A stretch of 46,277 nt of DNA from a virus. Positions 10,731 through 46,277 of this stretch are shown one piece after another (the first letter of the stretch is position 1; every line of letters begins with the position of its first letter). The notes below the pieces were generated by a model. The model had not been told where the DNA came from. It did not search any database and saw nothing but the letters and a program-made list of their open reading frames with translations. The translations under genes and the position numbers were made by a program. Location: IMG/VR virus record IMGVR_UViG_3300020603_000033, positions 1 through 46,277 of that record; one strand, 5' to 3'.

Positions 10731-10804
10731 TGGACCTCCGTTGGCCCTTCGCCCTGGCCATCCTGGCCGCCGCGATCCTCTTCATCTGGAGGCACCACCG
10801 ATGA
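10730..10804 (+). CDS. Tiny single-pass membrane protein (24 residues)
   Basis: MDLRWPFALAILAAAILFIW followed by a basic end (RHHR). This is a short N terminus, one hydrophobic helix of about 16 residues and a positive C-terminal tail. It overlaps the preceding stop codon, and its own stop overlaps the next ATG (ATGA), so it fits perfectly in the operon. It could be a small membrane protein affecting the host, or mainly a coupling peptide. It was found by reading the junction. Confidence 0.5.
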   Translation: MDLRWPFALAILAAAILFIWRHHR

Positions 10805-27874: not shown

Positions 27875-27885
27875 GGGCCGGCTCC

Positions 27886-28977: not shown

Positions 28978-28994
28978 ATGGCGAGGGGCGCTGG

Positions 28995-29141
28995 ATGCGT
29001 AGTATCCTGATCCACATAGCCGCCATGATCGCGGCGGCCTTATTGCCATTCTACGAAGTGACCTATCGCCGGGACCTGGGCAACTGGCGGCGTGACTGCT
29101 CATGCGTGGGAGACATCAGTTCATGGCAGGATGGACAGTAG
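28995..29141 (+). CDS. Small protein ending at an in-frame amber codon
   Basis: A 48-residue protein starting MRSILIHIAAMIAAALLPFY after GAGGGG. It has an N-terminal hydrophobic helix followed by a charged stretch (EVTYRRDLGNWRRDCSCVGD) with two cysteines. It stops at TAG (29139-29141), but the same frame continues for 44 sense codons in protein-like sequence to a TGA that overlaps the next ATG. The complete frame (93 residues plus the amber) fits the operon far better than the short form, so it is either interrupted or read through. Confidence 0.5.
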   Translation: MRSILIHIAAMIAAALLPFYEVTYRRDLGNWRRDCSCVGDISSWQDGQ

Positions 29142-29276
29142 AATGGTATTGAGGACGCTGCCTTCTGGCACTGGGAGTCTATGCGCCTCTTTCACGCTGC
29201 GAAGGCTTACGATCTGGACGACAGCCTCCGCATCCTCCGAGACATAATCCACACGTACCGAGAGGAGCACCCATGA
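29142..29276 (+). other. In-frame continuation after the amber codon
   Basis: Codons after the TAG at 29139 read NGIEDAAFWHWESMRLFHAA then KAYDLDDSLRILRDII to HTYREEHP and TGA. This is helical and charged and ends with the usual ATGA coupling to the LamG gene at 29273. An internal ATG at 29181 could start a 31-residue peptide, but it has no ribosome site. Nonsense mutation, suppression or readthrough would all explain it. Confidence 0.55.
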
Positions 29277-30037
29277 TACGCGCGATGATCTTGACTGCGA
29301 TGGTTTCTATCGCCGCTATGGCGCAGTGGTCCTTGCAGGACCTCCAGTTCCTGTACACCTTCGATGAGGGGCAAGGAGAGATCGTCGCAGACTCGTCTGG
29401 CAACGGGCGCGACGCAGAGCTCCAGGGAAAGGGGTCCACATGGACCACGGGGGTATTCGGCGCGGCGGTCAGCTTCTCGGGCATGGGGTGGGCAGAGGTG
29501 CCCGGTTGGAGCACCCCCGAGCTAGGCGACTTCACTCTCGGGTGTTGGGTGAGGCCCGCCGCACAGCAGCGGCAGTGGGCCACGATCCTCGACTCGCACC
29601 AGGCGCCCCCACAGCGCGGGCTTGCCTTCGAGCAGAACAGTATGGAGCACAACCTGTTCCACACCATCTGGGGCGATGGGAAGGATTGGAGCGGCGGCGC
29701 CATCCAGACCCAGTTGGAGCCCGACGTCTGGCAGCACTTCGTTGGCGTTCGGGTCGGGGGGATATCGACCCACTACATCAATGGAGAAGTCCTACACACA
29801 GGCCTTGCCGGCCTTGAGGCGCCCGTGATGGCAGGCACCGACAACTTCCGCATCGCCAACTGGGTCGGCAGCGGGCGCAACTTCGCGGGCGCCATAGACG
29901 AGGCGTTTCTGTACTCCCGCGCCCTCAGCGCAGACGAGGTACAGAAGCTGCACGACAAGGGATTCTCGAAGGCGCTTGATGTCGTGCCGGCGCGCACGTT
30001 GGCAACTACATGGGCGTCGCTTCGCACAGAGAAGTGA
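29273..30037 (+). CDS. Secreted LamG/concanavalin-like domain protein
   Basis: A 254-residue protein with a short signal-like start (MIRAMILTAMVSIAAMA, probable cleavage before QWS). A LamG fold follows: LYTFDEGQGEIVADSSGNGR at the start, FTLGCWVRPAAQQRQWATIL, INGEVLHTG and AIDEAFLYSRALSADEVQKL at the end. The final ALDVVPARTLATTWASLRT resembles the end of many Poribacteria or Planctomycete-type LamG proteins, where a short linker and TTWG.LK close the domain. LamG proteins bind glycans or proteins outside the cell. It is probably host-derived cargo; a role in the virion or in altering the host surface is possible. Confidence 0.72.
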   Translation: MIRAMILTAMVSIAAMAQWSLQDLQFLYTFDEGQGEIVADSSGNGRDAELQGKGSTWTTGVFGAAVSFSGMGWAEVPGWSTPELGDFTLGCWVRPAAQQRQWATILDSHQAPPQRGLAFEQNSMEHNLFHTIWGDGKDWSGGAIQTQLEPDVWQHFVGVRVGGISTHYINGEVLHTGLAGLEAPVMAGTDNFRIANWVGSGRNFAGAIDEAFLYSRALSADEVQKLHDKGFSKALDVVPARTLATTWASLRTEK

Positions 30038-30050
30038 GGGGTAAACCAAG

Positions 30051-31043
30051 ATGAAGATTGTCATCGTCGGGACCGATGGGCCTACCGATTACACCACGAG
30101 CACCGGCATCGTACTCCATGACTGGCGCGGCAGTATGCAGGCATCGGCCTCTGCACTGCTGCCATTCGTCGCCGAAGATGATGATCTGTGTGTTGTCGGG
30201 CGGATGCCCGCGAACCTGATGGCTCCGTACAAGGAATACATGAAGGCCCGGTATGAGGACCGGATATCCACACGGTACGTCATCCCAGGACCTGAGGCGA
30301 GGGCCCCAGGTCGCATGACCCAGGGCGGGGAACGATGGGTCGGCAATCTGGGGGGCTGCGCGAATGCGCTTCGATTCGAGGAACTGCCGCACGGGCTCTT
30401 CGACGGATGCCGCGCGGTCTTGTTCAACGCTGGGGGCCCGTACACCTACGAACCCAGGATGATCGAGCAGGTACGACAAGCGTGCCCTGGCGTCTTCATC
30501 CAGGTCGATCCTCATTGCTTGCTCTGGCATCTGGACGAAGAGTTCAACATCGTCTACGGGCCCTTGACCAACTGGGCCTACTACATGGGCATGGCAGACG
30601 TTGTGCAGTGCAACCGCGCAGAAGCCCAGATCTTGCTCCAGCGACACCCGAGCGAGCGCTTAGAGGCTGAGGAGCTTCTGCTGGGCCTGCATGCCGCAGG
30701 CCTCCCATGCCCAGTCGTCACCGACGCCGCCGAAGGCGCCTGCGTCCTACAGTACGATGGCTTCTCCCAGAGACCGATCGCGGAGCGGATCCCTGCGCCT
30801 GAGATCACGCAGATCATAGACGAGACCGGGTGCGGCGACGCATTCGGCGGCGCGTTCCTGAGTGGCAAACTTCGGGGGTACGGTAACATGGCATGCGGCC
30901 AGCTCGGATGCGCTTGCGGCACCTTGGCCTGCCAGTATCTAGGGTACCCAAGGCCCGGAGACATCACGAAGAAGAGCATCGAGTACGTGATGAGGACGAC
31001 CTATGCTCGTGACTACTCAGACAGTTTCTTTGCTCTGCGATGA
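30051..31043 (+). CDS. PfkB-family sugar kinase (HldE kinase-like)
   Basis: A 330-residue protein of the ribokinase/PfkB type. The second PfkB signature is clear: DETGCGDAFGGAFLSGKL (residues 257-274) with the anion-hole GCGD and the catalytic Asp263. VLFNAGGPYTYEPRM and DVVQCNRAEAQILL match the substrate-side strand and the NxxE metal segment (here NRAEA). The first PfkB signature (GG-N-A region) is represented by LGGCANALRFEE near residue 103. In bifunctional HldE this domain phosphorylates D-glycero-beta-D-manno-heptose 7-phosphate to the 1,7-bisphosphate. The following gene is the matching nucleotidyltransferase, overlapping by 41 bases. Other PfkB sugars (ribose, fructose) cannot be excluded. 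Confidence 0.75.
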   Translation: MKIVIVGTDGPTDYTTSTGIVLHDWRGSMQASASALLPFVAEDDDLCVVGRMPANLMAPYKEYMKARYEDRISTRYVIPGPEARAPGRMTQGGERWVGNLGGCANALRFEELPHGLFDGCRAVLFNAGGPYTYEPRMIEQVRQACPGVFIQVDPHCLLWHLDEEFNIVYGPLTNWAYYMGMADVVQCNRAEAQILLQRHPSERLEAEELLLGLHAAGLPCPVVTDAAEGACVLQYDGFSQRPIAERIPAPEITQIIDETGCGDAFGGAFLSGKLRGYGNMACGQLGCACGTLACQYLGYPRPGDITKKSIEYVMRTTYARDYSDSFFALR

Positions 31044-31464
31044 TGCCCGAGCACGGGGGATGAAGATCGTCATGGCCGCTGGCAACTTCGACGTGCTCCA
31101 TGCGGGCCACATCCGCCATCTGAGAGAAGCGCGGGCTGAGGGCGACCTGCTCATCGTCCAACTCGCGTCGGATGAAGTCGTGACCAACGGGAAGGGCCCC
31201 GGGCGCCCAGTGCACCCGTTCCGGGAGCGTGCCGACATGATCGAGGCGATCCGGTACGTAGACTACGTGGTCGAGGACACGGTGCACGACGGGATCGTCG
31301 TCGTGAACATGATTCGGCCGGACGTGTTCACGAGGGGCTGTGACTACACGCGCGAGACAGCGCCCGAGACAGCGCTTGTCGAGTCGTACGGTGGCCGGAT
31401 GTTCTTCACGTCCGGACCGAAGCGAAGCAGTCGGGACATCGTGGCCCAGATTCGGAGAACCTGA
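31003..31464 (+). CDS. RfaE2/HldE-type nucleotidyltransferase
   Basis: A 153-residue cytidylyltransferase-superfamily enzyme. GNFDVLHAGHIRHLREA (residues 27-43) holds the HxGH motif at 33-36; KGPGRPVHPFRERADMIEAI, then RYVDYVV, MIRPDVFTRGCDYT and SSRDIVAQIRRT align strongly with the C-terminal domain of HldE (RfaE2), which makes ADP-glycero-manno-heptose from the 1-phosphate. CTP:phosphoethanolamine or FMN relatives lack the GPGRPV...ER pattern. The start behind GAGGA is well supported; an inner ATG at 31060 would drop the first 19 residues. With the kinase upstream this recreates HldE as two overlapping genes in the same order as its domains. Confidence 0.85.
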   Translation: MLVTTQTVSLLCDDARARGMKIVMAAGNFDVLHAGHIRHLREARAEGDLLIVQLASDEVVTNGKGPGRPVHPFRERADMIEAIRYVDYVVEDTVHDGIVVVNMIRPDVFTRGCDYTRETAPETALVESYGGRMFFTSGPKRSSRDIVAQIRRT

Positions 31465-32465
31465 TGGGCTGGTACAACCTGCTCGACCTTCGGACCCGCG
31501 TCCGTGACTTCCTCAAGGAGCGCGACGACGACGGGTACTGGACGAACGACGAGCTCAACCGGCACATCAACGCGGGCGTCCGGGAGTTCGGCCGCAAGTC
31601 CCGCTGCGTCGAGGCGTGCTTCTCACAGGACGTGCAGCCGGGCAAGCAGGCCTACTCCGCGCCCGGCACCATGCTCCAGGGATCGCTGGCCTACGTCCAG
31701 TTCCAGGAGCCCGGCCAGGACCCGGTGAGGCTGGAGTACCTGGACGACCGGCGCTTCCACTTCGAGTACCCGCTGTACACCCTGGGCATTCCTCGCGTCT
31801 ACACGATCTGGCGCGACTGCATCTACCTGGGGCCTACTCCGAAACGGTACGACGAGGCCGCGATCAGGCTCATCTCCGAGGGGCTGTACACGTACGCGCT
31901 GCTTCCCAACGGGGACCGCATCTACCTGCTACAGAACTCGACGACGCTCCTCGGCCAGGACGTGGCTACCGTCGAAGTAGTCACCGCGGCGAGCCTCAGT
32001 TTGACAGGATCGAACAAGGTCGTCGTCCACCTTCCCGAAGACGAGGACGTGGTGCTCTTCGAGACGACCTCCCGCACCGGCACGGTCACGATCGTGCTCG
32101 ACAACTACATCCTGAAGGCGAAGCTGCCCGACGGGAACTACGTGAACCTGTACGAGGTCGGCTTGCAGAGCTACCACGGCACCCTGCACCTTCATGCCTA
32201 TGAGGTGCCGGAGCCGTTCTCCGAGGATACCGACGGCTGCGAGATCCACGACGAGTACCAAGAGGGGCCTGTGTACTACGCCGTCTGGCTCGCCCTCTTG
32301 GCAGACTCCAAGGGCGACTTGGCAGCGCCGTTCAAGGCGATGTTCGACTCGATGGTCAACGAGGCGAACTGGGCCAACCGGATGCATCAGTTCGACCAGA
32401 TAAACGGCCGTCAGACGGCCCGCGAGGAGCTAGGGCGTGTCCCCAGCCACCGAAGAGTCTTTTGA
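31464..32465 (+). CDS. Head-tail adaptor / connector protein
   Basis: A 333-residue protein starting with one base overlap after the previous stop. The N-terminal pattern (LDLRTRVRDFLKERDDDGYW then TNDELNRHINAGVREFGRKS) is the helical opening of phage adaptor proteins that bind the portal ring. The middle is beta-rich (VRLEYLDDRRFHFEYPLYTL; VATVEVVTAASLSLTGSNKV and an EDVVLFETTSRTGTVTIVLD repeat), probably a surface domain. The last 90 residues return to helices (YYAVWLALLADSKGDLAAPF, AMFDSMVNEANWANRMHQFD). It closes the head after packaging and joins the tail hub encoded next, which overlaps it by 29 bases. Confidence 0.7.
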   Translation: MGWYNLLDLRTRVRDFLKERDDDGYWTNDELNRHINAGVREFGRKSRCVEACFSQDVQPGKQAYSAPGTMLQGSLAYVQFQEPGQDPVRLEYLDDRRFHFEYPLYTLGIPRVYTIWRDCIYLGPTPKRYDEAAIRLISEGLYTYALLPNGDRIYLLQNSTTLLGQDVATVEVVTAASLSLTGSNKVVVHLPEDEDVVLFETTSRTGTVTIVLDNYILKAKLPDGNYVNLYEVGLQSYHGTLHLHAYEVPEPFSEDTDGCEIHDEYQEGPVYYAVWLALLADSKGDLAAPFKAMFDSMVNEANWANRMHQFDQINGRQTAREELGRVPSHRRVF

Positions 32466-34620
32466 GGTCAGCCGCTTCTCGCTTGGGCTTGAAGTCGAGC
32501 CCGGCTGGAACCGCGCGGACAAGTACACCCTCGAAGAGTGCGTGAACCTCGACCTCGACGAGGACGGCGCCCTTGTGACGCGCAAGGGATGCCGCCGTGT
32601 CGTGAACCCCAGCCTGCTCACGAACGTCCGCGGGCTGCTTGTCACGGACGTCGAGGGCGTGCCGACGGTACTCCTCAGCGGGGCCCATGCCACGGAGGGT
32701 GGTTCGGAGGGGCTCTATCAGGTCCGGCGTTATGCGCTCTTCGGCGGCGGGCTCGGCAGCGGCGACTACTCGGGCGGCAGTGGCGCGTACGCGCGTGCCT
32801 ACGGCCTCTCGAACGATGAACCGTTGTCCACACAGGGCTGGCGCTTCGTCTACTTCCGCGGCTTCGTCTACCTCTCCGCTGGGAACCAAGTCCTCTTGGA
32901 CACAGGCGTGAGCACGAACCCGAAGACGCACTCCGGGATGTTCCGCTGGCAGTGGCACAACAAGCCCACGAGCCAGGCCATGCCCCTTCAGGACTGGGCG
33001 CCGGATGGTGTCGCGGACCTGCTCGCGCAAGACGAGTCGCTTCCCAAGCCGCGCATCATCGCGGGCGGCATCGTGGTGCCCATGCGCGTGACCAGCAGGA
33101 AGATCGTGTTCCGTGACGAGCAGGGCGCTTTCATCGTCGCCCATCCGGGTCTCCGAGGCATGACCGCGGAGGAGGCTCGGCAGAGATACACCCAGCCAGT
33201 CGCCGAGGCGGGCGCGCCCGCACTCGCCGGCAGGCTCACCGCGGGCCACTACTACTACGTCGTGACGTACCTGCGCAGCCTCACCCTGGGCGAGTCCGTG
33301 GGCTACGAGCTCGACGTCCAGGTGTCGACCGACGGGATGCATGTCGCCATCGACAACATCCCAACGCACACGGACCCCTCCGTGGACGTGATCCGCGTCT
33401 ACCGGAACGTGTCGCCCACTGAGCCTGAGCTACGCCTGCTGTCTGAGATCGGCAACGGCGAGGCTAGCTTCTTCGACCGGGGCGAGGACGTGAGCCTCGT
33501 TGAGTCCGCCTACCACCCGCTGACCGGGCCTCCGACTGCCAACGCCATGGTCGTGCACCAGGGCCGCCTCTGGACGTTCGGCGCGACCTCGGCGGGCAAC
33601 TTGGCCAGCTACAGTGAGATCGGAGCGCCCGAGAACTTCTCAGTCGCCGAGGGCGTGGTCTTCGGAGCCTACCCCGGGCCGAGGGTCGTCGCGGCGGCAA
33701 GCGTGGGCGTGCGGTCCGAGGAAGAGCTGTACTCCGGGCCCCTCCTCGTGTTCACGCCGTCGCAGACGTACGCCCTTGTGGGCCAGCCACCGGAAATCTC
33801 CATCCGAACGCGGAGCGAGACCGTCGGATGCCAAGCGGAGGCCACCGTGGCCCAGCACGAGCATCGCGTCTTCTGGCTCGGCGCCAACGGCGTATACGCC
33901 TCAGACGGCAACATCATCCGCCGGATCAGTGCCGCAGATGGCGAGTGGAGCAACGGCAACATCGACGGCCGCCTTTCGGGCATACCGAGCACCATCCTCG
34001 CCAAGGCGTGCGCGGCTGTCGCGCATCAGCGGTACTATCTCTCCGTGCAGGACAACCGAAGCCAACAGCGCGTTTTCGTGTTCGACCTTCGCCGTGGCAT
34101 CTGGACGGAAAGGGAGTACCCCTTCACGATCACGAGCATGAGCACCTACCGCAGCCGGTCGGGCGGCGAGCGCCTGTACGCAGCGACGAGCACCGGGGAG
34201 GTGTTCGAGCTTGAGGTCGGGGACCGCGATCAAGACGGCGACGGCAACTGGAACACGATCGACTGGCGCGCGAAGCTGAATCCGAACTGGTTCGGCAACA
34301 AGGGCCAGACGAAGCGCTTCCGCCGGGTGCGGGTCGTCACCGACCGGAGCAGGGACATCACGTTCCGGACGTACGTCGGCTCCGCTGCCGGCAACCAGGC
34401 CCAGGTGAAGCAGACGAAGGTCTTCGAGGCCCCCGAAGTGACGGAGTGGGATGGCTTCTCCTGGGACGACGGCACCACATGGGTCGCGCGCGGCTACCGC
34501 GTCATCCGCGAGGGGCTGAGCGACGCCAACGTCGGGCTGAGCCTCCAGAGCGAGACGGCTGGCAGTGGGCCCGGACGTGTTGCCTCCGTGGCAGTGGACA
34601 TCCGAAGGCTGAGGAGTTGA
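32437..34620 (+). CDS. Tail hub / DNA-stabilising tail protein
   Basis: A 727-residue protein starting at GTG after GAGGAG. The opening (SRFSLGLEVEPGWNRADKYT, LEECVNLDLDEDGALVTRKG) is typical of large tail-hub or tail-accessory proteins of short-tailed phages (P22 gp10-like stabilisers and related environmental proteins). It continues with beta-propeller-like repeats (LWTFGATSAGNLASYSEIGA; SQTYALVGQPPEISIRTRSE; HRVFWLGANGVYASDGNIIR; QQRVFVFDLRRGIWTEREYP). It would sit below the adaptor and retain DNA. The family is by pattern; no enzymatic motif is seen. Confidence 0.66.
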   Translation: MSPATEESFEVSRFSLGLEVEPGWNRADKYTLEECVNLDLDEDGALVTRKGCRRVVNPSLLTNVRGLLVTDVEGVPTVLLSGAHATEGGSEGLYQVRRYALFGGGLGSGDYSGGSGAYARAYGLSNDEPLSTQGWRFVYFRGFVYLSAGNQVLLDTGVSTNPKTHSGMFRWQWHNKPTSQAMPLQDWAPDGVADLLAQDESLPKPRIIAGGIVVPMRVTSRKIVFRDEQGAFIVAHPGLRGMTAEEARQRYTQPVAEAGAPALAGRLTAGHYYYVVTYLRSLTLGESVGYELDVQVSTDGMHVAIDNIPTHTDPSVDVIRVYRNVSPTEPELRLLSEIGNGEASFFDRGEDVSLVESAYHPLTGPPTANAMVVHQGRLWTFGATSAGNLASYSEIGAPENFSVAEGVVFGAYPGPRVVAAASVGVRSEEELYSGPLLVFTPSQTYALVGQPPEISIRTRSETVGCQAEATVAQHEHRVFWLGANGVYASDGNIIRRISAADGEWSNGNIDGRLSGIPSTILAKACAAVAHQRYYLSVQDNRSQQRVFVFDLRRGIWTEREYPFTITSMSTYRSRSGGERLYAATSTGEVFELEVGDRDQDGDGNWNTIDWRAKLNPNWFGNKGQTKRFRRVRVVTDRSRDITFRTYVGSAAGNQAQVKQTKVFEAPEVTEWDGFSWDDGTTWVARGYRVIREGLSDANVGLSLQSETAGSGPGRVASVAVDIRRLRS

Positions 34621-34623
34621 CCG

Positions 34624-35178
34624 ATGGCACAGGTAACGCTTCCGAACACCATCACGGCAGGCCAGCCCGCCGAAGCGGCCGAGGTGCAGGAGAACTTCGA
34701 GGCCCTTCGAAACGGCGTGAACAACATCGAGCGCGAGCAGATAGCCCAGGGGGAGATACATGCTGGGCTGCTGGAAGACGGCGCGGTGGTCACCGCGAAG
34801 ATCGGCACTGGCGCGGTCACGACCGACAAGCTCGGGTCGGAAGCGGTCACCAACCCGAAGATCGCAGACGGGACCATCGAAGCCGCCAAGCTCTCCAGCA
34901 ACATCCAGGTCCTCGTGCACAGCGACGCTGACGTGACCATCGCAAACGGCAATACTGACATTCGGGACTTCGTGGGCCTCGACACAACGATCTTCCCGCA
35001 CGTGCAGGTGTACTGGGAGGATGCTGTGCCGAACGTGTGGAAGGTCATCGACGAGGACCTGTACAACAACGTGGACGTGGACGTGCAGCTAGCGGGCGCC
35101 GTCTGGCGCGTCACGATCAAGAATGGGGACGCCGCCAGCCACGACTTCAAGATCGTCGTGAGCGGGCCTGCCGCGTAG
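34624..35178 (+). CDS. Small tail-fibre or spike protein
   Basis: A 184-residue protein after AGGAG. The start VTLPNTITAGQPAEAAEVQE and FEALRNGV is the common N-terminal attachment peptide of small fibre proteins. Then come the repeats GAVTTDKLGSEAVTNPKIAD and GTIEAAKLSS, a trimeric fibre signature. The last 90 residues are beta-rich (IRDFVGLDTTIFPHVQVYWE; VDVQLAGAVWRVTIKNGDAA), likely a knob that contacts host or tail. No glycan enzyme is visible. Confidence 0.72.
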   Translation: MAQVTLPNTITAGQPAEAAEVQENFEALRNGVNNIEREQIAQGEIHAGLLEDGAVVTAKIGTGAVTTDKLGSEAVTNPKIADGTIEAAKLSSNIQVLVHSDADVTIANGNTDIRDFVGLDTTIFPHVQVYWEDAVPNVWKVIDEDLYNNVDVDVQLAGAVWRVTIKNGDAASHDFKIVVSGPAA

Positions 35179-35187
35179 GAGAGTCCG

Positions 35188-36108
35188 ATGCCAGTCGCAG
35201 AGACGATAATGACGGTCAGTGCGGTGCTCTCCGCACTACAGGGTCTCCGTGGGCTCTTGGGGGGCGATCCCTACGAGAAGGAGGCCAAACGCGCGGGCTC
35301 GACGGCCGCATCGCTGGAGCGACAGATCACGTCGTCACTCACTCGACGACTGGCTGGGGCACCCTCCGCGACGGCCCGCGAGCTCGCGCGCCAGGCCCAG
35401 GAAGGCATCACTCGACAAACAGCGCAGGCCAGGGAGTCACTGGCCCGAGAAGCGCAACGCGCGGGCACGTACGGCGCAGGGCCGTCTCTCGCGCAACAGC
35501 GGCTCGCATCAGAGCGGGGCATCCGCTCCGCGACCGCCGCTGCCAGGGGGGTTGAACTCGCAGACCTTCGGGGCGCGGAGGCGCAAGCCGCAGAGATGGC
35601 GCAGAGGCTGCGGATACAGGAACAGGTGCTCAGGTCGCAACGGATCGCCGAACAGCAGGTGTATGGCAACCTCCTGGCCGCAGGCGCGCAGATCGGCACG
35701 TACCTGTACACGATGCGGGAACTGAGGGGCACGATGCAGACAACGCCTACTGCCCCCGCTGCACCAGCCGCAGGGCCAATGAGCTTTCCGCCGTCAGGAA
35801 TCTTTGGGCCCGCTCCGACAATGCCCGCTGGGCGTATGGCGTTGCCAGGGGGCACGCTGGGACAGTGGCCCACGTACCAGTTTTCCGCGATGGCGGGCGC
35901 TGCCCCGTCCGCAACTGCTCCGCCAACGACACCGCGGATGGCACTGACGTTGCCGCCCGCGTCAACGCCCTTCGGCACTCTGGGCCCGCCCGGACTTGAT
36001 CTGGCGAGGATGTTGGCCGCGCTGCAACCTCCCAGGCCACCGTTGGCCGCGGAGGAGAACCCAGCACTCGCCCGGTTCCTCGAGTACCTACACCCGGGCG
36101 CCTACTAG
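35188..36108 (+). CDS. Probable internal virion / ejection protein
   Basis: A 306-residue protein after AGGAG. The N-terminal 30 residues are hydrophobic with Gly (VSAVLSALQGLRGLLGG). Residues 50-150 are long Ala/Gln/Arg-rich helices (ARQAQEGITRQTAQARESLA; AQAAEMAQRLRIQEQVLRSQ). The last third is Pro/Ala/Met-rich and disordered. This is typical of small internal core or ejection proteins of podoviruses. It precedes the two giant proteins that also look internal. No motif proves the role. Confidence 0.6.
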   Translation: MPVAETIMTVSAVLSALQGLRGLLGGDPYEKEAKRAGSTAASLERQITSSLTRRLAGAPSATARELARQAQEGITRQTAQARESLAREAQRAGTYGAGPSLAQQRLASERGIRSATAAARGVELADLRGAEAQAAEMAQRLRIQEQVLRSQRIAEQQVYGNLLAAGAQIGTYLYTMRELRGTMQTTPTAPAAPAAGPMSFPPSGIFGPAPTMPAGRMALPGGTLGQWPTYQFSAMAGAAPSATAPPTTPRMALTLPPASTPFGTLGPPGLDLARMLAALQPPRPPLAAEENPALARFLEYLHPGAY

Positions 36109-36117
36109 GACACGACG

Positions 36118-39100
36118 ATGCCAACACCTGTGACGAGCGCGCTACTCGGTCTGAGCCAGGGGATCATGCAGGGCAACAAGCAGGCCATCGAGCAGTACTC
36201 CGCGGAGCTCAAGCGCGGCGCACAGGCCGAGCAGGAGGAGCTACTTCGCCTTCAGCAGGAGCAACTGCGCCTGACGATCGACTCCAAGAAGCGCGAGATG
36301 ACCCGCGAGGACGCGTTGGAGTATGACCGGCTCATGGCCGATCAGAGCGCGCTTGAGGAACGCACCCTCAAGAACAGGCTCACCTCGGAGACGATCCGCT
36401 TCATCGATTTCCTGCCTCCCGACGAACGCCTCAAGGTCATGCGAGGACTCGCGGACAAGATGTCCGGGGCGTCGGAGACCGCACAGCGGGAGGCGCAGTC
36501 GGTCTACTACCGCGCACAGGCATCCGAGGCCACTGCCCGAGCAGGCCTCTATGGCTCGCAGTCTCAGTGGTACAGCGAGCGCGCGATCACCGAATCGATG
36601 CAGCGCGACGAAAACCTGGCGCTTCTGCGAGGCCGGGTCCGGGAACTCGCAGGCGATGCACGCGCTCAGGAACTGGAGAACACGTTCACCGAGTCGACCC
36701 TGCACGCCCGGGTCCTGTATCAACGCGAGCTCCTTGAGAGCCAGACTTCGGAATTGCAGGGCAAGGCCCTGATGGCGCGCTTCACCACCGGGCTGGTGAA
36801 CAAGTGGTTGGAGGATGTCGGCCAGAGCGACGAGCCCTGGGCTGCGGCGTTCCGGGAGGCCCTGGTCGAGAAAGAGGTGGGCGCGTACGGCATCGCACGC
36901 GAGATGACCGGCGACGCCCTGAACATCGCCAAGCTCGGAGGCCTCACGGACGCGCTCAGGCGGACGGGGGCCGCGCAGACGCGAAGGGCCAATGCCGCGC
37001 GGGGCGCTGCCAAGGTCTCAGACTGGTGGGATGATCCCTACGAGCGACAGTTGGGCCCGCCCGGGCTCAGCTACAAGACCTACCCGATCTCGCAGGCACC
37101 GTCCGACATCATGGAGCGCGTTCGCGGGTCGCTCATGCTGATGCGAGACAACCCGGAACTGGCCGGCACGGGGATATCGGCGCTGGAAGCGGGCATGGAG
37201 ATGTACCTGGGCCGCATGTCACTGCCACTGAGCGGGGGGCGGATGTTCGGGGCCAACGACGGGCTGAACAGCGTCATCATCACGAAGGCATGGGCGGACT
37301 CCGTGGGACTCCATGGCAGGCCTCTGAATCAACTACCCGACCCAGAGACCGGCAGGCCGTATGTTCTGGCGACACAAGAGCAGGGCACTTACGTCAGCGT
37401 CCCGAAGCGGCATCTGAAGGACGCCATGATCCAAGCGGCAGGGATTGAGCTCGATACGGAACTGGCCTTGCAGGACCCTGCGTATGCCGCCCAGCCCCAG
37501 ACGATGAACCGAGCGTTCGCCTATTTCTTCAACTCCTACGTCCAGAACGCGGGCGAGCTCATGCCGCCGTTCTACCGCGCGATGATGGAGCACACCGCGA
37601 ACGCTCTGACGGCTGGGGTACAGCAGGCCGCTCGGCAAGAGGCGGCGGCGCAGCCTCCCGTGAAGGCACGCGTGCCCGTGGGGCCGCCAGGAGCCGGCGG
37701 CTACGTCGAGACGGAGCCTGCGGCCGCCGCGCCTCTGCGCGAGGACGTGGCGTCGATCCTGGACATCATCGCGGTGCCGTACTCGATAGGCGCGGAGATG
37801 GGCGAACCAGGCCAACAGGCCCTGGTGGACTTCATGACTGCCGCCCTGAGCGCGCATGAGAGTGCGCAGTCGAGCGAGTACGCGATGCACGCGATGGGCA
37901 GGTTGGGCGACGACTTCGGCGAGGTCCTTACGGACAGCGCTGGAAACCGTCTCTTCCTTCACGACAGGCTTCCAGACGGCACCCGCGTGTACCGGGACGC
38001 GGCAGGGCACGAAAAGAGATGGACACCAGACGCCCTCGCCGCCGACGTGAACTCGCGGCGCATCACGGTGAAGAAACCCAAGCCGCTTAGCGCCACCCGG
38101 GCCCCAGCGAGGCCGATCACCCCGGGCGCTGGCTACCCGCTCCTCCCGGGCGATCGCCCCCCGATACCCGTCGTCGACCACCAACGGGCCAAAGGCCTCA
38201 GCGAGCGTGACTTGGCGCTGGTCAATGCTCGGCACGACCGCGACTTGTCATACGCCGCGTTTGCGCTCCGCGGGAACATCCTCGATGCCATAGGCGAGCG
38301 GGTGCCAGGCGAGTCGATCGACGCGCTACGACGACGCATCGTGAGCTACTACATGGCGCCCGACGTGACCCCGAGGGACCGGGTCTACGCGGCAGCCGCA
38401 GCGAACAAGAACCGGAGCGCTGAGCTCCGCCGGGCCATCGCGCGGGGCCTTCCCTGGCCGAAGTGGACAAACTCCCTGCGGCAGGGGGCCTCCTATGAGG
38501 AGGCCGCTGGGGCTTTGGGCATCGACAATATGCTGAAGCAGATTCAGCCCGCGGTGGACGCCATCTACCGCGCCGAGCAGGAGGGCGCGGTCGGCGAGCC
38601 AGTCAGCATCTTGGACTTGGTGCCCGAGCCACTGGACCTTCCCGAACAGTTACTTCCCGTTCCTCGAAGCACGATCTCCCGGAACTTGTCTGAGGCAGTG
38701 GCATCGGCGGACCCGCCGCGAATACGTGGCGTCTTGGCCGCGAAGGAACTCCTAGAGAACGCGCTCTTCGAGTCGGTGAGCGAGAAGGAGGGCGGTTTGT
38801 CGGTCGAGATTCCAGACACCGCTGCCTTCGGGGCCCATGAGCTCAACAACCCCGGACTCCTGGGGTACAGCGACATGCTGCGAGCTCGCGAGGGGGCTAC
38901 GCGCTCCGAAGACGGCCTCGCCAAGTTCGCCACGCCAGAGAAGGGCTACGCGGGCCTCTTCGACGTCGTGCTCACAAACAGCCTGCGCGTCGGGCAGTCG
39001 CTCGGAACCTTCCTCGCAAACTACGGTGCTTCCCTTGATCGGACGACGGGCGTTCCCGGAGAGACCTTCGCAAGCGACGCGCTTTCAGCCCTTCAACGTG

Positions 39101-39207
39101 AGCAGCCCGCCTACCAGGAGACAACCCCGCTCATCGAGGTCGACAGCCAGTCCCTCGCGCGCGTACTCGCAAGGTTGATCTCAGGCACCGAGGTCTACTA
39201 CGCATAG
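36118..39207 (+). CDS. Large internal virion protein with muramidase-like C-terminus
   Basis: A 1029-residue protein. The first 300 residues are helical and Gln/Glu/Arg-rich (LGLSQGIMQGNKQAIEQYSA; QEELLRLQQEQLRLTIDSKK), like core proteins carried in the head. The middle has mixed parts with Pro-rich linkers near 525 and 660. From residue 870 to the end, ELNNPGLLGYSDMLRAREGA with NNPG at 910-913, DGLAKFATPEKGYAGLFDVV, SLGTFLANYGA and EVDSQSLARVLARLISGTE follow the pattern of P5-type virion lytic transglycosylases (NPGNL; GFA.F....G..A). It would open peptidoglycan at entry. A catalytic Glu can be assigned only tentatively (Glu908). Confidence 0.65.
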   Translation: MPTPVTSALLGLSQGIMQGNKQAIEQYSAELKRGAQAEQEELLRLQQEQLRLTIDSKKREMTREDALEYDRLMADQSALEERTLKNRLTSETIRFIDFLPPDERLKVMRGLADKMSGASETAQREAQSVYYRAQASEATARAGLYGSQSQWYSERAITESMQRDENLALLRGRVRELAGDARAQELENTFTESTLHARVLYQRELLESQTSELQGKALMARFTTGLVNKWLEDVGQSDEPWAAAFREALVEKEVGAYGIAREMTGDALNIAKLGGLTDALRRTGAAQTRRANAARGAAKVSDWWDDPYERQLGPPGLSYKTYPISQAPSDIMERVRGSLMLMRDNPELAGTGISALEAGMEMYLGRMSLPLSGGRMFGANDGLNSVIITKAWADSVGLHGRPLNQLPDPETGRPYVLATQEQGTYVSVPKRHLKDAMIQAAGIELDTELALQDPAYAAQPQTMNRAFAYFFNSYVQNAGELMPPFYRAMMEHTANALTAGVQQAARQEAAAQPPVKARVPVGPPGAGGYVETEPAAAAPLREDVASILDIIAVPYSIGAEMGEPGQQALVDFMTAALSAHESAQSSEYAMHAMGRLGDDFGEVLTDSAGNRLFLHDRLPDGTRVYRDAAGHEKRWTPDALAADVNSRRITVKKPKPLSATRAPARPITPGAGYPLLPGDRPPIPVVDHQRAKGLSERDLALVNARHDRDLSYAAFALRGNILDAIGERVPGESIDALRRRIVSYYMAPDVTPRDRVYAAAAANKNRSAELRRAIARGLPWPKWTNSLRQGASYEEAAGALGIDNMLKQIQPAVDAIYRAEQEGAVGEPVSILDLVPEPLDLPEQLLPVPRSTISRNLSEAVASADPPRIRGVLAAKELLENALFESVSEKEGGLSVEIPDTAAFGAHELNNPGLLGYSDMLRAREGATRSEDGLAKFATPEKGYAGLFDVVLTNSLRVGQSLGTFLANYGASLDRTTGVPGETFASDALSALQREQPAYQETTPLIEVDSQSLARVLARLISGTEVYYA

Positions 39208-39217
39208 GAGCGCCGCT

Positions 39218-42200
39218 ATGGCAGCGAGAACGCCGTCCATCGCGGGCCGAGTGCCCAGGAGCGCTCCCGCAGCAGCGCAGCCCCAGCAAGCGGCCCCCAC
39301 AGCCCCCGAGCCCTCCCCGTTCCTCACGGGGCAAGCGCCTGGCACCGAAGCCGTAGGCCCGCAGGCAGGGCGCCGAGTGCCTGTCTATCGGGTGACCCCC
39401 GGAGATTTCCCGACCGCGTACCAGCGTGAACTCGCCTACGAGACGGGCCTTCGGAAGCGGGGCTTGGTGTCCCCCGTCTGGAGGGCGATCGAGATCGCAA
39501 CTCGTGGCGAGGCGCCCCTTGCGGCGGTCACCTACTACACCTACCTCGACATGATAAAGAGGGGCGCGCCCGCGAACCCCTTCACGGCCTTCCTGTCGAT
39601 GCTCCAAGCTGCGTCTCTCACCCCGCTGGCCATCCCCACCGCTGCGGTAGGCGGTGCTGCCCTCGCAAGCGCAGTAGCGACGCCGGCAGCGGCCCCGTTC
39701 GGCGCTTTGGTGGGGGCCGGCGCGGGCGTAGCTTCCAACTTGGCAGCGCTCGCCATCGACCCCAAGAAGTACCTGGAGAACCTGACAACCATCCGGGACT
39801 CATACCGCGGGCTCATACGCGCAGGCAAAATGCCCATCGACCTCGTGGCCGTGGCCCAGAACAGCGGTCTTCCCGACTGGGCCGCGTACGCCGTCGGCAT
39901 CCCGATGGCGATGGCGAACCCCTCGGACTACACCAACTTCCTTCCCGTGGGCGCGGTAGGGAAAGGTGCCGCCAGGACGGGCGCGAAGATCGTGGTGCCG
40001 GTGGCCGAGCGCCTGACCAAAGCAGGAAGCAAGCTCCGACTCTTGCCTGACGAGTTGTCTGCACTGCGACGCACACGCGAGCTCTTGCGGCCTGGCTTGG
40101 CGGCCCCGCCACCTACAGTCGAACTGCCGAAGCGCTGGCTCGGGGTTGCCGAGCCCGGCACGGGAACGGGCAAGCTGCAGCCCGTCTCCACACCCCGCGT
40201 GGACTACATCGCAGGCCCTGGCAAGGCCAAGGCCGTCTCGCAGGAGGCCTCTGAGGAAGCGGCCCGCGCAGCCAGGCAGGTCTTGGGCGTGGGCGGCACG
40301 TTGGACGAGGCAGAGGCGGCCGCGAGGGAGGTATTCGAGAACGCCGCAGACGTAACCGAATCGACGACGCGGGCCGTGCGCCACGACGTGCAGGAAGGCG
40401 ACATCTACGCCGTCCTGGGACGCAGCAAGAGGGCCCAGATGGCCGAAGAAGCTGGGGGCTTCCTGAACGAGACACTTTCGGAGTCGCTACAGCAGAGGAC
40501 GATTTCGTTGCCTCTGTCGGCAGAGGGACGGCGCGAAGTAGCACGGCTGACGGCGCAGAACTTCGGTGAGAACGTCGAGCGTGTGGGTGCAGAGGGTGCC
40601 GAGGTCGCCATGTCAGGTCTTGACGCGGCCAAGAGAGGCGATCTCGAAGAGGCGGCGCGCAGGCTCGAAGAGCTTGGCAACATGGCGCAACAGGCCACGA
40701 GGGACATTTCCTCCTACGTAGACGAGGTTGGGGCAGGGAACAAGGCACTCCGTACGATGCAGCATCAGATACTCGACGCCGCCGCGATATGGGAGTCGCT
40801 AGGCGCGGAGGGCGTTAGGGGCGTCGGGAACATGCGCCGAGAGGTTGCGTTGCGCGGCTTCTCGGCGAGCGACGTGGACAGCTTCGAGAACGCGCTGAAG
40901 TGGCTCAATGATCCAGACCAGTCGCTTAGGCACATCGTCGAGGGGCCCAGGACCCCAGCGCTTAGGGATACCGTCGCGTGGACCTACCAGACGCTGCTCC
41001 CGATACCGCGGATAGCGCGAAGAGGGGAAGCGCCACGACGGATACTGCCCCTAGGTCGCCTCCGGCTGACCACCCCACTTGAGGCAACGCTCACACCAAC
41101 CTTCCGTGGTTGGAAGTGGCGTTCCGTCGCATGGGGATCGATGGGCGTGACCATCGGCGCGCTTGACGTACAGCCCGAGGACACCTACGCCGACGTGGCG
41201 TGGAAGATTCTCGCCTGGGGTGTCGGCGCTGGGGTACTGGGAGGCCGCGCGCTTGCACAGATGGACCGCAGGCTCCTCCTGAGGTACGAAGCGCTGGCGG
41301 GTGGGATCGCGCAGACCCGCAAAGCGCAGAGCGAGGCAACCGCTGCGCTCATAGCCCACTTGGGCACCGATGGCGTGAAGCGCCTCGCAGAGTCCGGCGT
41401 GCGGCTGTATGGCATCCTGTCCACGTTCCTCGGGCGCCAGTGGTCGAGGGTGCTCCAAAGGGCGCACCCCGCGAGCCCCGCCTATGAGGCCCTCGCGGTC
41501 AACATCAACACCGTCCTCGCGCTCCTTAGGTCGGCCGATCACGGCAGCCAGATCATCGGCGAGCAGATCAGCCGCGACCTGGAACGGGTGGTGAACCTCG
41601 CGCAGTCCCAGGGCGTGGCCGTGAACGCAGAGCGACTGAGCGAGTTCCTGAACAACGTCATCGAACTGCGGCACGACCTTGACATCACTGCGACCGCGCG
41701 AGAGGCCGAGGCAGCGGCGGGCGGGCGACCTGAGCTCCTACCAGTTCAGCGGCCTGAGACGTTGCCCACCGAGCCCTTCCCCGAGCTAGACCTGCCCGAT
41801 CTTCCCCAAGGCCCTACGCCGTCCACAGCGCCGCAGTGGGGGCCAGGCGTGACGCCCGAGGCGCAGGGCGACCTGTACTACATCTCCGAGATCGAACGGA
41901 TGCGCAGGAGCACTGAGCCGCTGGTGCCCGGCCCTCGGGCCGGCGGGCCTACAGCCGAGGAACGGGGAGAGCTCTTCAAGCCCGAGAAGGTGGAGATGGA
42001 ACCGCCTACTCCGGGCGACGTTGTGCCAGGACCAGGGGCACCGCCGCCTGAGCGACGGGATCTGTACAGCCCCGGGCCTGACATCGACGACATCGAGCGG
42101 CCCATGCCATCCCCGGAGGTCATTGGCTCGTCCGAGGAGCGCGCTCGGCGGCTGCGTGAGGAGCGTAAGCCGATCAGCCCGCAGACTCGCAGGGCGCACC

Positions 42201-45200
42201 GTGCCAAGGCGCAAGAGTACGCGAACGCATATCTCCGAGAGCACGGCCTCACGACTTCCGACATCGACGAGGCGGTGCGCGATTTCATCAGCGATGCGAT
42301 CCGCAACGACCTCGCCGAGTACACCGACACGGACATCACTACGGCAGTCATCCCCAAGCTGCGCCGAAGCCACCCCAACCTTCCCCAAGATGCCGGTGCG
42401 GAGTCGGACCTGTACGAGCACGTGCTCAAGGCCGCACGCGCCGCGATCGTCAGCCGGCTCGACAGCCAGATTCGGATACTGCGGTACGACTCCGAGACGG
42501 GCTCCCTGGTTCTCACACACCTGGGCGTAACTGATTACTCGGACGCGATGAACCGGCGACTGGCCATTGATCGGAGACCGGTCACCGCGACTACCCGCGA
42601 CGATCTTGGCGCGGCCGTGCTCGGGAACGAGACGTACGTGCAGGCGGCGGGCATGCCCTCCCGCGAGGCGCACTGGGCAGTGATGGAGCGCGAGGAGATC
42701 GTCCCCTCTCACGGCAAGATCGAGGAGGGCGCGTTCAACTACAAGTCGAACGTGGACCTCGGGTACCCGAACCGCGAACTTCCCGATAAGCGCATCGAGA
42801 ACGCCAACACGCGCGACTACGCAACCGACGAGACGTTGAAGCGCAGGATTGACGCGCGCTTCTCCCTGCCGCCCGACGCACCTGACGCCTTCAACACCAG
42901 GTACCTGATCCTCGACTCCCCGTCGCCTGAGGAGGGCGCGCCGATCTTGTCTTTGTGGCGCGGCAAGAAGGTCGTCGCGGGCGGGAACCACAGGATGCTG
43001 CTCATCAGCAAGATGTACGCATCCTCGACGCCCACGGCGTACCGGGAGGCCTACCAGGCCCGGCTCCGCGCCTTCGCGCCTCTGGTAGGGATCGACCCTG
43101 CGGTCGTTGATACGATGCGCGAGCCGGTCTTTGTGCGAATCCTCTCAGAGAGCCCCGAGCAGTATGACGACTTCCGCAAGCTGGTCGACGAGCTCAATCA
43201 AGAGGGTGTGCAGGCCACGGATACGGCGGTGCGTCTCGGAATCCGAATCCGCGCCTTGGAGGAAGATGCCCAAGACGCGCTGGGTAGGCTGATCGAGTCC
43301 TTGCCCGAAGACGTTCCGGCGGACACGGTGATGCGGAACGACTCGACCCGCGCAACGGCCATCATGGGATTCCTGCGCCAGCATGGCTTGGTCCCCGAGA
43401 ACAAGTTGAACTCCCTGTGGAACAAGCAGGACCGGGTCTTCAATCAGGCGGGCGCAGACTTCGTGCGAGACATGCTCCTGGCGCTCCTCACCGACGATAC
43501 CCGCGTGCGGCATCTGTTCGAAGCGAACCAAGGGATCGGTCGGGCGCACATACGGTCCGCGCGATACATCCACGTCATCGACAAGTTCGAGACCGGCTTT
43601 CAAGCGGACCTGAACCGCGCCTTGTCGCTCTACGACAGGTACGCCTCCGCGATGGAACGAGAGACGCGCGTCGTGCCCTTCAACGAGTGGGTTCGCGCGC
43701 AGAGAGAGCCGGGAGACCTCCTAACCGGGCAGCGGTCCTTCCCCGAGCTTTCCGAGCGCGAAGAGGCCCTTCTTCAGTGGGCGCATGACAAGCGCCGAGC
43801 GCCCGCGCAGATGGCACAGGCCTACCGGGAGTACGCTGAGTTCCTGACGCAGTACCACAGCGGCCAGCAGTTGCTCCTCGGGTCCACGGACAACCGTACG
43901 CCGTTGGACGTGTTCGCATCGCTCTTCGGCGGAGATACGAGCCAACGCGCGGCGCTGGTCGAGAACCTGCGGATCGCGCTCCAAGGCCAAGCGAGGACCC
44001 ACTGGCAGGAGGCCCTCCAGGCAGCCATCGCCGCTCGTAAGACGGACATCCCCGAGGATGCTGTGCCATTTCTCATGGCCGTTCAGGACAGCATCGCGGC
44101 AGCGGCGGTGCGGGCGAGGCCGGAGACGTTCCCCACGACAGAGCACTACTTCCGGGCGATCTCTCCGGAGTTCTCGGGCGACGAGCCGACGAAGATGTTG
44201 GGATCGGTCCTGTCAGCCTCCGGGGAGCCCGACGAGTTGCTGCGCCTGCTAAGGACCAACGCGCCCATCGCCGATGCCGTGGGCATACTGGGCCTATGGA
44301 AGCAGTCGAACGTTGACACCTTCATCCACGAGTCTGGGCACCTTCTTCGGATGATCCTGAGAGACGAGGACCTAGAGGCGGCGCGGCGCTCCTTCCTCGA
44401 TCTCTCGGTGGTGAAGTTGCCCAGGGAAACCGAAGACGAGTTCCGTACGCGCGTCGCAAAGATCGACCTGGATAAGGTCTGGCTGATCGGTGACTTCCAG
44501 CGCGAGGCGTTTGGTCAAGTCTTCGAGGAGACGCGGCTGTTCGAGGAGTACATCGCCGATGCCTTCCAGAAGTTCCTTCGGACTGGACAAGCGCCGAACG
44601 CTCGGATGAGGGACGCCTTCGAGCGGATCGGCCAGTGGCTTGGGGACCTCATGGGAAGGACGATACGGGCCGAGGGCAGAGAGAAGATCACGAGCACCGA
44701 ACGAATCTTTCGGGGCGTGGAGCTCTCCGATGAGATGCGCGCTCTGTTCGCGCGGCACATAGGCACGTCCGAGGACGACATCATTCCCGTGCGGCGATTC
44801 GCTCCTGAGACGCCCGATCAGATGCCCACCCGAGAGGACCTGATAGGCGACTACGCAGCGGAGTTCGGAATCACGTCGAGCCAAGCGGTGGCCCGACTCA
44901 GGGACCCCGATGCCCAAGACGTGCGGTGGCTGAGCCGCATGGCGGAGAAGTACGGGAACGCCGAGGAGTTCACCCGCGTTCGTACGCAGGTCGTCAGGGA
45001 GGTGCCGGCGCCCGACATCCCGGGCGGCCTAGAGGAGCGCCTGAACGAGATACCCGGCGCTGGGGACATCAAACGCAACATCGGGCTGGTAGAGGGCGGT
45101 GAGTTCCACCAGGAACGTCTGCGCGAGCTCGCAGAGCGAGTCGATACGGAAACCGCCAACCTTCGGGCCAACGGCGATATGACTCCAGCGACGATTCTGT

Positions 45201-46277
45201 CCGGACGCGTCATGGACGACATCATCCAGCATGTCGCGGCGAGCGCGGCGGGGCTCGGCGGCAATCCCCAGTTCCTCGACCGGCCATCGCTCGCGAACTA
45301 CTTCGAGCAGATGGGCCACGGCAGGGTGGTCGAGGGCATGTTCAAGGTGGCACGGCGCGAGCTCGGGATCGCAGACGACACGGAGGACATGTTCCTCGCG
45401 TTTGTGGCCCCTGCGGTCGCGCTGAGGGCCGGGTACAACGCGCTCCACTTCTCGGAGCAGTACGCGGGGCTCGATGCTCCTACGCTCATGTCGGAGGTCT
45501 CACAGTACGCCTTCCACCTGCTCGACCGCACGGCGCGCACGCGCCTACAGAAACTTGGCGTCCTTGAACGCGCCCCAGGTACGACAGTGCTGAACGCGGT
45601 GCTGCCTTCGTCGATGATGCGGCGCAAGCGGATGCAGTACTTCCTCGTGGATAGCCGCTTCGTGGAGGTTGACGAACTAGGCAGGCCCCGTGGCGTGCTC
45701 CAGGCGACGAAGGCCTTCCGCCCGCTCGATGACGGCACGCTGGCGTTTCTGGCGCGATACGGCCGGGTCGAGGCAGGCGTGAGTTCCGCGCAGTTCCTTG
45801 GCCGCTCTGATGATGAACTGCGGGCCTCCTTGGACATCCACCTTCCCGGCGGCAAGACCTCCAAGGCGCTCATGGCCGAAGACGGCTACTTCCAGTTGCG
45901 GATGGCCGACAACCCCATCGTCATCGATGAGCAGCACAAGTTCTGGGCCGTCGAAGTGCCTTTCTCCGACCTCCCCATCACAACGGTGAACCGCCTGTAC
46001 AGGTCCGGCTCGTTGAGACTTGAGAAGCTCGATGACATCTCCCGGCGCGGGCGGGTGAGCGCGAGGGACTACATGCGCCGGTACTTCGAGAGCACTCCGG
46101 CCGTCGTGGGCAGCCATGCCGGAGAAGGCCTCTTCGTAGACGACCCCGGGATCGCCTTCGCGGCACGTTGGGCTCAGAGCAAGCGGGCAGTTTTGAAGGC
46201 CGAGCTCCTGTCGCACACGCTCGCGCACCCGTGGTATGGACGCGCGGCCTTGACGGCTGGCATGGACGATTGGGAGG
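39218..46277 (+). CDS. Giant polyvalent virion protein (partial, over 2350 residues)
   Basis: Starts at ATG after AGGAG and stays open to the window end (2353 codons seen). The first 50 residues are Pro/Ala-rich and a hydrophobic, Ala/Gly-rich region lies at about 120-185. Coiled-coil parts cover about 330-510, and a Pro/Glu-rich linker lies at about 825-950. Residues about 1215-1450 hold a DdrB-like ParB domain: WRGKKVVAGGNHRMLLISKM with GNHR at 1256-1259, PVFVRILSE, then RNDSTRATAIMGFL, VFNQAGADFVRDM and the NQGIGRAHIRSA helix region. Residues 1700-1710 read DTFIHESGHLLR, a zincin HExxH metal site (His1704, Glu1705, His1708) followed by the FEEYIADAFQKFLRTGQAPN segment common in large polyvalent proteins. 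Such proteins enter with the DNA and protect or process it. The end is missing. Confidence 0.75.
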   Translation, partial: MAARTPSIAGRVPRSAPAAAQPQQAAPTAPEPSPFLTGQAPGTEAVGPQAGRRVPVYRVTPGDFPTAYQRELAYETGLRKRGLVSPVWRAIEIATRGEAPLAAVTYYTYLDMIKRGAPANPFTAFLSMLQAASLTPLAIPTAAVGGAALASAVATPAAAPFGALVGAGAGVASNLAALAIDPKKYLENLTTIRDSYRGLIRAGKMPIDLVAVAQNSGLPDWAAYAVGIPMAMANPSDYTNFLPVGAVGKGAARTGAKIVVPVAERLTKAGSKLRLLPDELSALRRTRELLRPGLAAPPPTVELPKRWLGVAEPGTGTGKLQPVSTPRVDYIAGPGKAKAVSQEASEEAARAARQVLGVGGTLDEAEAAAREVFENAADVTESTTRAVRHDVQEGDIYAVLGRSKRAQMAEEAGGFLNETLSESLQQRTISLPLSAEGRREVARLTAQNFGENVERVGAEGAEVAMSGLDAAKRGDLEEAARRLEELGNMAQQATRDISSYVDEVGAGNKALRTMQHQILDAAAIWESLGAEGVRGVGNMRREVALRGFSASDVDSFENALKWLNDPDQSLRHIVEGPRTPALRDTVAWTYQTLLPIPRIARRGEAPRRILPLGRLRLTTPLEATLTPTFRGWKWRSVAWGSMGVTIGALDVQPEDTYADVAWKILAWGVGAGVLGGRALAQMDRRLLLRYEALAGGIAQTRKAQSEATAALIAHLGTDGVKRLAESGVRLYGILSTFLGRQWSRVLQRAHPASPAYEALAVNINTVLALLRSADHGSQIIGEQISRDLERVVNLAQSQGVAVNAERLSEFLNNVIELRHDLDITATAREAEAAAGGRPELLPVQRPETLPTEPFPELDLPDLPQGPTPSTAPQWGPGVTPEAQGDLYYISEIERMRRSTEPLVPGPRAGGPTAEERGELFKPEKVEMEPPTPGDVVPGPGAPPPERRDLYSPGPDIDDIERPMPSPEVIGSSEERARRLREERKPISPQTRRAHRAKAQEYANAYLREHGLTTSDIDEAVRDFISDAIRNDLAEYTDTDITTAVIPKLRRSHPNLPQDAGAESDLYEHVLKAARAAIVSRLDSQIRILRYDSETGSLVLTHLGVTDYSDAMNRRLAIDRRPVTATTRDDLGAAVLGNETYVQAAGMPSREAHWAVMEREEIVPSHGKIEEGAFNYKSNVDLGYPNRELPDKRIENANTRDYATDETLKRRIDARFSLPPDAPDAFNTRYLILDSPSPEEGAPILSLWRGKKVVAGGNHRMLLISKMYASSTPTAYREAYQARLRAFAPLVGIDPAVVDTMREPVFVRILSESPEQYDDFRKLVDELNQEGVQATDTAVRLGIRIRALEEDAQDALGRLIESLPEDVPADTVMRNDSTRATAIMGFLRQHGLVPENKLNSLWNKQDRVFNQAGADFVRDMLLALLTDDTRVRHLFEANQGIGRAHIRSARYIHVIDKFETGFQADLNRALSLYDRYASAMERETRVVPFNEWVRAQREPGDLLTGQRSFPELSEREEALLQWAHDKRRAPAQMAQAYREYAEFLTQYHSGQQLLLGSTDNRTPLDVFASLFGGDTSQRAALVENLRIALQGQARTHWQEALQAAIAARKTDIPEDAVPFLMAVQDSIAAAAVRARPETFPTTEHYFRAISPEFSGDEPTKMLGSVLSASGEPDELLRLLRTNAPIADAVGILGLWKQSNVDTFIHESGHLLRMILRDEDLEAARRSFLDLSVVKLPRETEDEFRTRVAKIDLDKVWLIGDFQREAFGQVFEETRLFEEYIADAFQKFLRTGQAPNARMRDAFERIGQWLGDLMGRTIRAEGREKITSTERIFRGVELSDEMRALFARHIGTSEDDIIPVRRFAPETPDQMPTREDLIGDYAAEFGITSSQAVARLRDPDAQDVRWLSRMAEKYGNAEEFTRVRTQVVREVPAPDIPGGLEERLNEIPGAGDIKRNIGLVEGGEFHQERLRELAERVDTETANLRANGDMTPATILSGRVMDDIIQHVAASAAGLGGNPQFLDRPSLANYFEQMGHGRVVEGMFKVARRELGIADDTEDMFLAFVAPAVALRAGYNALHFSEQYAGLDAPTLMSEVSQYAFHLLDRTARTRLQKLGVLERAPGTTVLNAVLPSSMMRRKRMQYFLVDSRFVEVDELGRPRGVLQATKAFRPLDDGTLAFLARYGRVEAGVSSAQFLGRSDDELRASLDIHLPGGKTSKALMAEDGYFQLRMADNPIVIDEQHKFWAVEVPFSDLPITTVNRLYRSGSLRLEKLDDISRRGRVSARDYMRRYFESTPAVVGSHAGEGLFVDDPGIAFAARWAQSKRAVLKAELLSHTLAHPWYGRAALTAGMDDWE

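Follow-up and report, generated by a model that had tools for sequence, protein, structure and literature searches.

The window, which is the entire 46,277-base IMG/VR record, belongs to a podovirus-type phage and ends inside a giant gene whose protein has its C terminus outside the record (Table 1). Genes for a portal (E 5.5e-32), a major head protein (E 1.2e-29) and a probable tail nozzle lie upstream of the giant gene on the same strand. The order of nozzle, 184-, 306- and 1029-residue proteins and giant matches that of BPP-1 (bbp13-bbp10), Pseudomonas phage AF, Xanthomonas phage CP2, Caulobacter phage Jess A and the metagenomic podovirus ctCJ8213, where the deposited labels read tail protein, internal virion protein(s), endolysin/SLT protein and giant protein; the window giant occupies the slot of BPP-1 bbp10. 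The original prediction had placed two probable ejection proteins directly ahead of the giant. Their slots and order are indeed those of the relatives, but none of the 184-, 306- and 1029-residue proteins has a confirmed ejection-protein homologue, so the name "ejection protein" is used here by position. We judge the phage to be very divergent, since single-sequence scans of IMG/VR with its head protein and portal returned no relatives.

Table 1. Features of the giant gene and of the genes directly upstream (res, residues of the giant protein)
Feature	Position	Strand	Basis or remark
Probable tail nozzle / head-closure protein	32437..34620	+	phrog_511 3.5e-20, phrog_8040 9.5e-6
184-aa protein, internal virion protein A slot	34624..35178	+	Position; weak low-specificity tail-fibre PHROG matches
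306-aa protein, internal virion protein B slot	35188..36108	+	Position only
1029-aa protein, transglycosylase/ejection (bbp11) slot of relatives	36118..39207	+	Position; no domain detected
Giant polyvalent protein gene	39218..46276	+	ATG start, 5' complete; 3' end beyond window
N-terminal part, res 1-850	39218..41767	+	Ala/Gly-rich; hydrophobic stretch res 121-182; no relatives found
Pro/Glu/Asp-rich linker, res 851-1010	41768..42247	+	18% Pro
DdrB-type ParB domain, res 1150-1310	42665..43147	+	PF18763 above cut-off, alignments, ParB/Srx fold of model
GGNHR, res 1255-1259	42980-42994	+	Inside PF18763 ddrB-ParB match
Helical extension after ParB, res 1311-1490	43148..43687	+	Roughly colinear with L093 (blastp to res 1427)
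Zincin-like metallopeptidase domain, res 1685-1933	44270..45016	+	PHROG 9880, family profile, invariant residues
HESGH, res 1704-1708	44327-44341	+	Inside PHROG 9880 and family-profile matches
Third ligand Glu1777	44546-44548	+	Identical in 80/80 relatives
C-terminal region so far, res 1934-2353	45017..46276	+	No relatives; protein runs on past edge

Several other loci of the window deserve mention in their own right. Within the structural operon, the head genes are separated from the tail genes by a sugar gene cassette (25153-31464, +). Its products are a heptosyltransferase-like protein duplicated in tandem (Glyco_transf_9, 2.6e-9), a possible methyltransferase, a protein that weakly matches glycosyltransferases, one that may be lectin-like, a sugar kinase of the PfkB type (2.4e-15) and a protein of cytidylyltransferase type that contains GNFDVLHAGH; the kinase and this last protein resemble a split HldE pair for ADP-heptose synthesis. 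There are two ORFs with matches to PHROGs of the terminase large subunit, one of 238 residues mainly with its C-terminal part (6933-7649, +; 1e-26) and one of 587 residues that also matches Terminase_6N (13509-15272, +; 2e-19), and they bear no mutual resemblance. A DNA helicase gene (phrog_62, 2.8e-110) precedes one whose product may be a single-strand annealing protein of the Sak type, the latter match lying just under the cut-off (8347-11769, +). The C-terminal end of the 1029-residue protein (38758-39204, +) carries an NNPG and a FATPEKGY stretch, presumably resembling phage structural or lysozyme-like NNPGN domains; a database search with this end reached only E 0.2. A glutamine tRNA predicted at 37486-37581, antisense within the same gene, is probably spurious.

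The giant frame and its two domains

The giant gene comprises 2353 codons from ATG 39218, which has AGGAG a short way upstream, and is still open at the window edge. It is one real coding frame throughout, because it contains no in-frame stop, versus 17-68 in each of the remaining five frames here, and because its third-position GC is uniform, at 0.78-0.84 in every 300-codon block, with the neighbouring genes alike. The single open frame of more than 2350 codons named in the original prediction is therefore real, and the expectation that parts of the chain would be without known identity also holds: no credible match turned up for residues 1-850 or 1934-2353. When IMG/VR and the GTDB genomes were scanned with single sequences from several parts of the giant, no relatives appeared, and alignment-based queries were needed. 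A plasmid search yielded a single weak match (E 0.4). Neither the giant protein nor the alignment of either domain brought up a credible relative among PDB sequences; the neurolysin matches (E 0.25-0.73) cover only the HExxH stretch. Pfam searches of the 2353 available residues detected no T7-like RNA polymerase, methylase or helicase domain of the kind that would mark an N4-type virion RNA polymerase or a DarB-type giant. GGNHR and HESGH are each expected in about 4% of shuffled copies; the motifs alone thus prove little, and it is on the profile matches that the assignments rest.

Residues 1150-1310 are a DdrB-type ParB domain, on the joint evidence of profile, conserved residues and fold. 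PF18763 (ddrB-ParB), the sole Pfam family detected in the giant, matches with E 8.6e-8 and 32.8 bits against a curated cut-off of 27.6, covering profile positions 51-119 of 121. The active-site Arg1259 of the GxxR motif is invariant in alignments of 10 and 18 sequences, as is Asn1257, whose correspondence to the Asp/Asn at the end of strand 2 is uncertain. The Gly and Pro that precede Arg1259 in the alignments and the tyrosines that follow it are conserved across diverse DdrB-ParB domains, and the conserved tyrosine of the extra helix is present by alignment as Tyr1275 or Tyr1279, in a helix predicted by AlphaFold2. The window's copy is itself divergent, with an altered QPRDR motif and GNHRM in place of GNGRT. 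A combined alignment of ParB and peptidase was discarded, its ParB rows being misplaced, and the two domains were folded separately. The ParB model has a core pLDDT of about 80-91. Foldseek alone gave weak matches (best E 0.7), the top five of which are ParB or Noc, and in a structural second look the 18 best rows were ParB, Noc, KorB, PadC, sulfiredoxin, SbnI or similar ParB/Srx-type chains at modest Z scores of 3.7-5.9, with unrelated chains at 3.0 or below. Profile and structure searches thus bear out the predicted ParB/DdrB-like core around GGNHR. The closest copy found lies on IMG/VR contig L093 and aligns to residues 1234-1427 (blastp E 5e-15); hhalign of the tail after ParB alone was not significant. 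ParB domains of the DdrB type are widespread in phages, with at least 284 stretches found.

We call residues 1685-1933 zincin-like by motif, ligand spacing and family, rather than by fold. A PHROG 9880 match covers HESGH (E 1.4e-7), and the family profile matches the whole domain with an hhalign E of 1.3e-15. A tblastn search of GenBank phages retrieved Rauchvirus giants only (26.5% identity), and an alignment-based IMG/VR scan found at least 311 relatives, whose frames span about 1,250 to 4,100 codons and in some cases stop at a contig edge. Eighty of these relatives were read for residue conservation, and all 80 share H1704, E1705 and H1708, the two zinc-binding histidines and the catalytic glutamate, as well as E1777. 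The window copy departs from them at Asp1700 (Ser in 80/80), Glu1776 (His in 70/80) and Thr1789 (Glu in 77/80). Tox-MPTase4 is the Pfam family that the relatives match most often (4/63, best E 0.002). The AlphaFold2 model of the domain (mean pLDDT 68) has two strands and two helices, and Glu1777 lies in the predicted second helix (1766-1789), downstream of the HESGH helix. The predicted HESGH metallopeptidase stands as far as family profile and invariant ligands go, but structural searches with the model matched no solved zincin or metallopeptidase in the PDB; its best matches among viral models are other phage giants. As a separate observation, contig L094 (7175-14053) encodes a 2293-residue giant in which a peptidase-type motif (residue 598) precedes the ParB domain (885-1017), opposite to the usual arrangement.

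Architecture of related giants

The architecture of the family was read from 50 non-redundant complete giants chosen by peptidase similarity. Pairwise coverage among them, counted as the share of other members aligning at a given position, is 0.13-0.32 on the N-terminal side, 0.998 over the peptidase and 0.54-0.93 over the rest of the chain behind it. The value at the peptidase is inflated by this choice of sample; the asymmetry between the N and C sides is unaffected. The distance from HExxH to the end is 1193-1415 residues in 47 of the 50, and the length before HExxH ranges from 550 to 2893. Judged from these comparisons, the peptidase of the relatives sits at the N-terminal edge of a constant module that makes up the C-terminal 1,250 or so residues and stands behind an exchangeable cargo. 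This cargo includes LPD22 in 16 and ART-PolyVal in 12 of the 47 giants, PBECR nucleases in three, and single cases of a kinase, GGDEF, RadC, Zeta toxin, LPD37 and others. DdrB-ParB is absent from the N-terminal cargo of the 47, and a ParB profile found none among the 80 sampled IMG/VR giants. One carrier of a BPP-1-type giant, Limnohabitans phage DC33 (L003, PQ492659.1), is filed under the filamentous Inoviridae; its 39-kb genome, with this giant, looks like that of a tailed phage.

The window giant follows the order of the family, with a ParB cargo and then the peptidase. An hhalign comparison of its residues 1934-2353, the 420 available, with the constant module detected no similarity, and if the family spacing from HExxH to the end holds, about 600 residues of the protein would be missing from the window. 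Because the peptidase lies at the junction of cargo and constant module in 50 relatives, its position favours a self-cleavage that would free the cargo.

Proposed role and comparison with known phage giants

Iyer et al. (2017) describe polyvalent proteins as polypeptides of phages or mobile elements that combine at least two unrelated biochemical activities, are encoded beside virion structural genes and enter the host together with the DNA. On the first two counts the window giant is such a protein: it joins a ddrB-ParB to a metallopeptidase-type domain and is encoded in a virus record next to virion structural genes, namely those of portal, major head protein and nozzle. The class named in the original prediction is borne out by these two unrelated domains within a putative ejection gene block. 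In our reading, the giant is probably the large protein that closes the ejection block of a podovirus, a polyvalent protein that is packaged, injected and self-cleaved and whose ParB domain acts early. Gene order and relatives suggest that it would be made late and packed into the head alongside the remaining internal virion proteins, from where it would enter the cell along with the DNA. We infer packaging and injection from P1 DdrB, which was found in the P1 virion with 39 peptides and 59.5% coverage (PMC9024508), and from the giant DarB-like protein of podovirus JC1, detected in the virion by mass spectrometry (PMC9144972); for BPP-1-type giants we found no published virion proteomics. The position of the zincin-like domain in relatives suggests that it would cut the chain near itself, between cargo and C-terminal delivery module, either within the particle or inside the cell. 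Published discussion covers both the proteolytic processing of P1 DdrB and the capacity of peptidases of this kind to process their own chain (PMC5512222), and the junction position sharpens this general proposal. The freed ParB domain, by analogy with the ParB/Srx superfamily, could bind or hydrolyse nucleotide and bind or nick DNA at the start of infection, which would protect or prepare the phage DNA or attack host or rival DNA. By analogy, a counter-defence action of the giant is possible.

We tentatively extend this reading to podovirus giants in general, which might be cargo-delivery systems: a fixed C-terminal module for packaging and ejection would carry a self-cleaving peptidase at its N-terminal edge, and any effector placed before it would be delivered and released. 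The window would then represent a case with ParB cargo and a different C-terminal module. Phage counter-defence by large injected proteins has been little tested, and a peptidase at the border of swappable cargo and constant module provides a simple, testable rule for effector release, for which this virus, with its ParB cargo and unmatched C-terminal part, is a divergent test case.

A serious though rather unlikely alternative is that the giant is mainly an ejectosome or structural protein that stands where T7 gp16 does and contributes to a periplasmic conduit, with ParB and peptidase serving assembly or maturation instead of direct attack on the host. Such a role would suit the place of the gene at the end of the ejection block of the relatives read, the constant C-terminal module that they have in common, and the listing of P1 DdrB as helping DarB addition to the capsid (PMC9024508). 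Yet the N-terminal half of the relatives is swapped for ADP-ribosyltransferases, RNase-like nucleases, a kinase or GGDEF, which fits effectors better, and the available part of the window giant lacks a detectable constant module. We also considered, from the deposited labels of relatives ("lysis protein/lysin, crystallin motif"; PMC9239159), that the giant could be a lysin whose peptidase-like domain acts on the cell wall in entry or lysis; this is very improbable, as the transglycosylase (SLT) domain of the relatives sits on the preceding protein, a Pfam search of the available residues found no murein hydrolase domain in the giant, and the label appears to be an inherited annotation. A reading of the ParB domain as a genuine partition or centromere-binding protein that maintains a prophage has next to no probability: ParB/Noc CTPase-domain folds are among its best structural matches, but sulfiredoxin-type folds match the model equally well and the domain is of the DdrB subtype, within a late structural giant beside which no ParA was noticed.

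The reading as an injected polyvalent protein is placed among known systems by several likenesses. The giant of ctCJ8213 (MW202738.1, 2476 aa) follows nozzle, internal virion proteins A and B and SLT protein in the same slot and has a ddrB-ParB domain (737-853, E 1.9e-28) and then HELGH at 1132, in the window's order; it differs in an N-terminal LPD22 and a canonical ParB, with about 20% identity to the window in the shared domains. The family of BPP-1 bbp10 and PHROG 9880 (Jess A gp039c, AF gp16, CP2 gp25) shares slot, size and the four invariant residues with the window giant, but its cargo is often LPD22 and/or ART where the window has ParB, and its constant C-terminal module is not detected in those residues of the window giant that are available. 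P1 DdrB, a virion protein compared through its published description (PMC5512222, PMC9024508), likewise has ParB and then a C-terminal MPTase, an order described by Iyer et al. (PMC5512222), whereas it is a 109-kDa protein of a myovirus that works with a DarA/DarB set, and no DarB-type domain was found in the window giant. A 1336-residue protein on IMG/VR contigs L097-L099 also carries ddrB-ParB before a zincin-type domain and is preceded by 700- and 687-residue proteins in a block similar to the window's, but it has a GNAT domain between the two and about half the size. The order of ParB and zincin, singled out as noteworthy in the original prediction, is therefore not unusual. Since this order and DdrB-type ParB domains are already known in phages, the window giant is a real but divergent member of an already described kind of phage protein; what we add is that the peptidase sits at the junction of exchangeable cargo and constant module in 50 non-redundant relatives.
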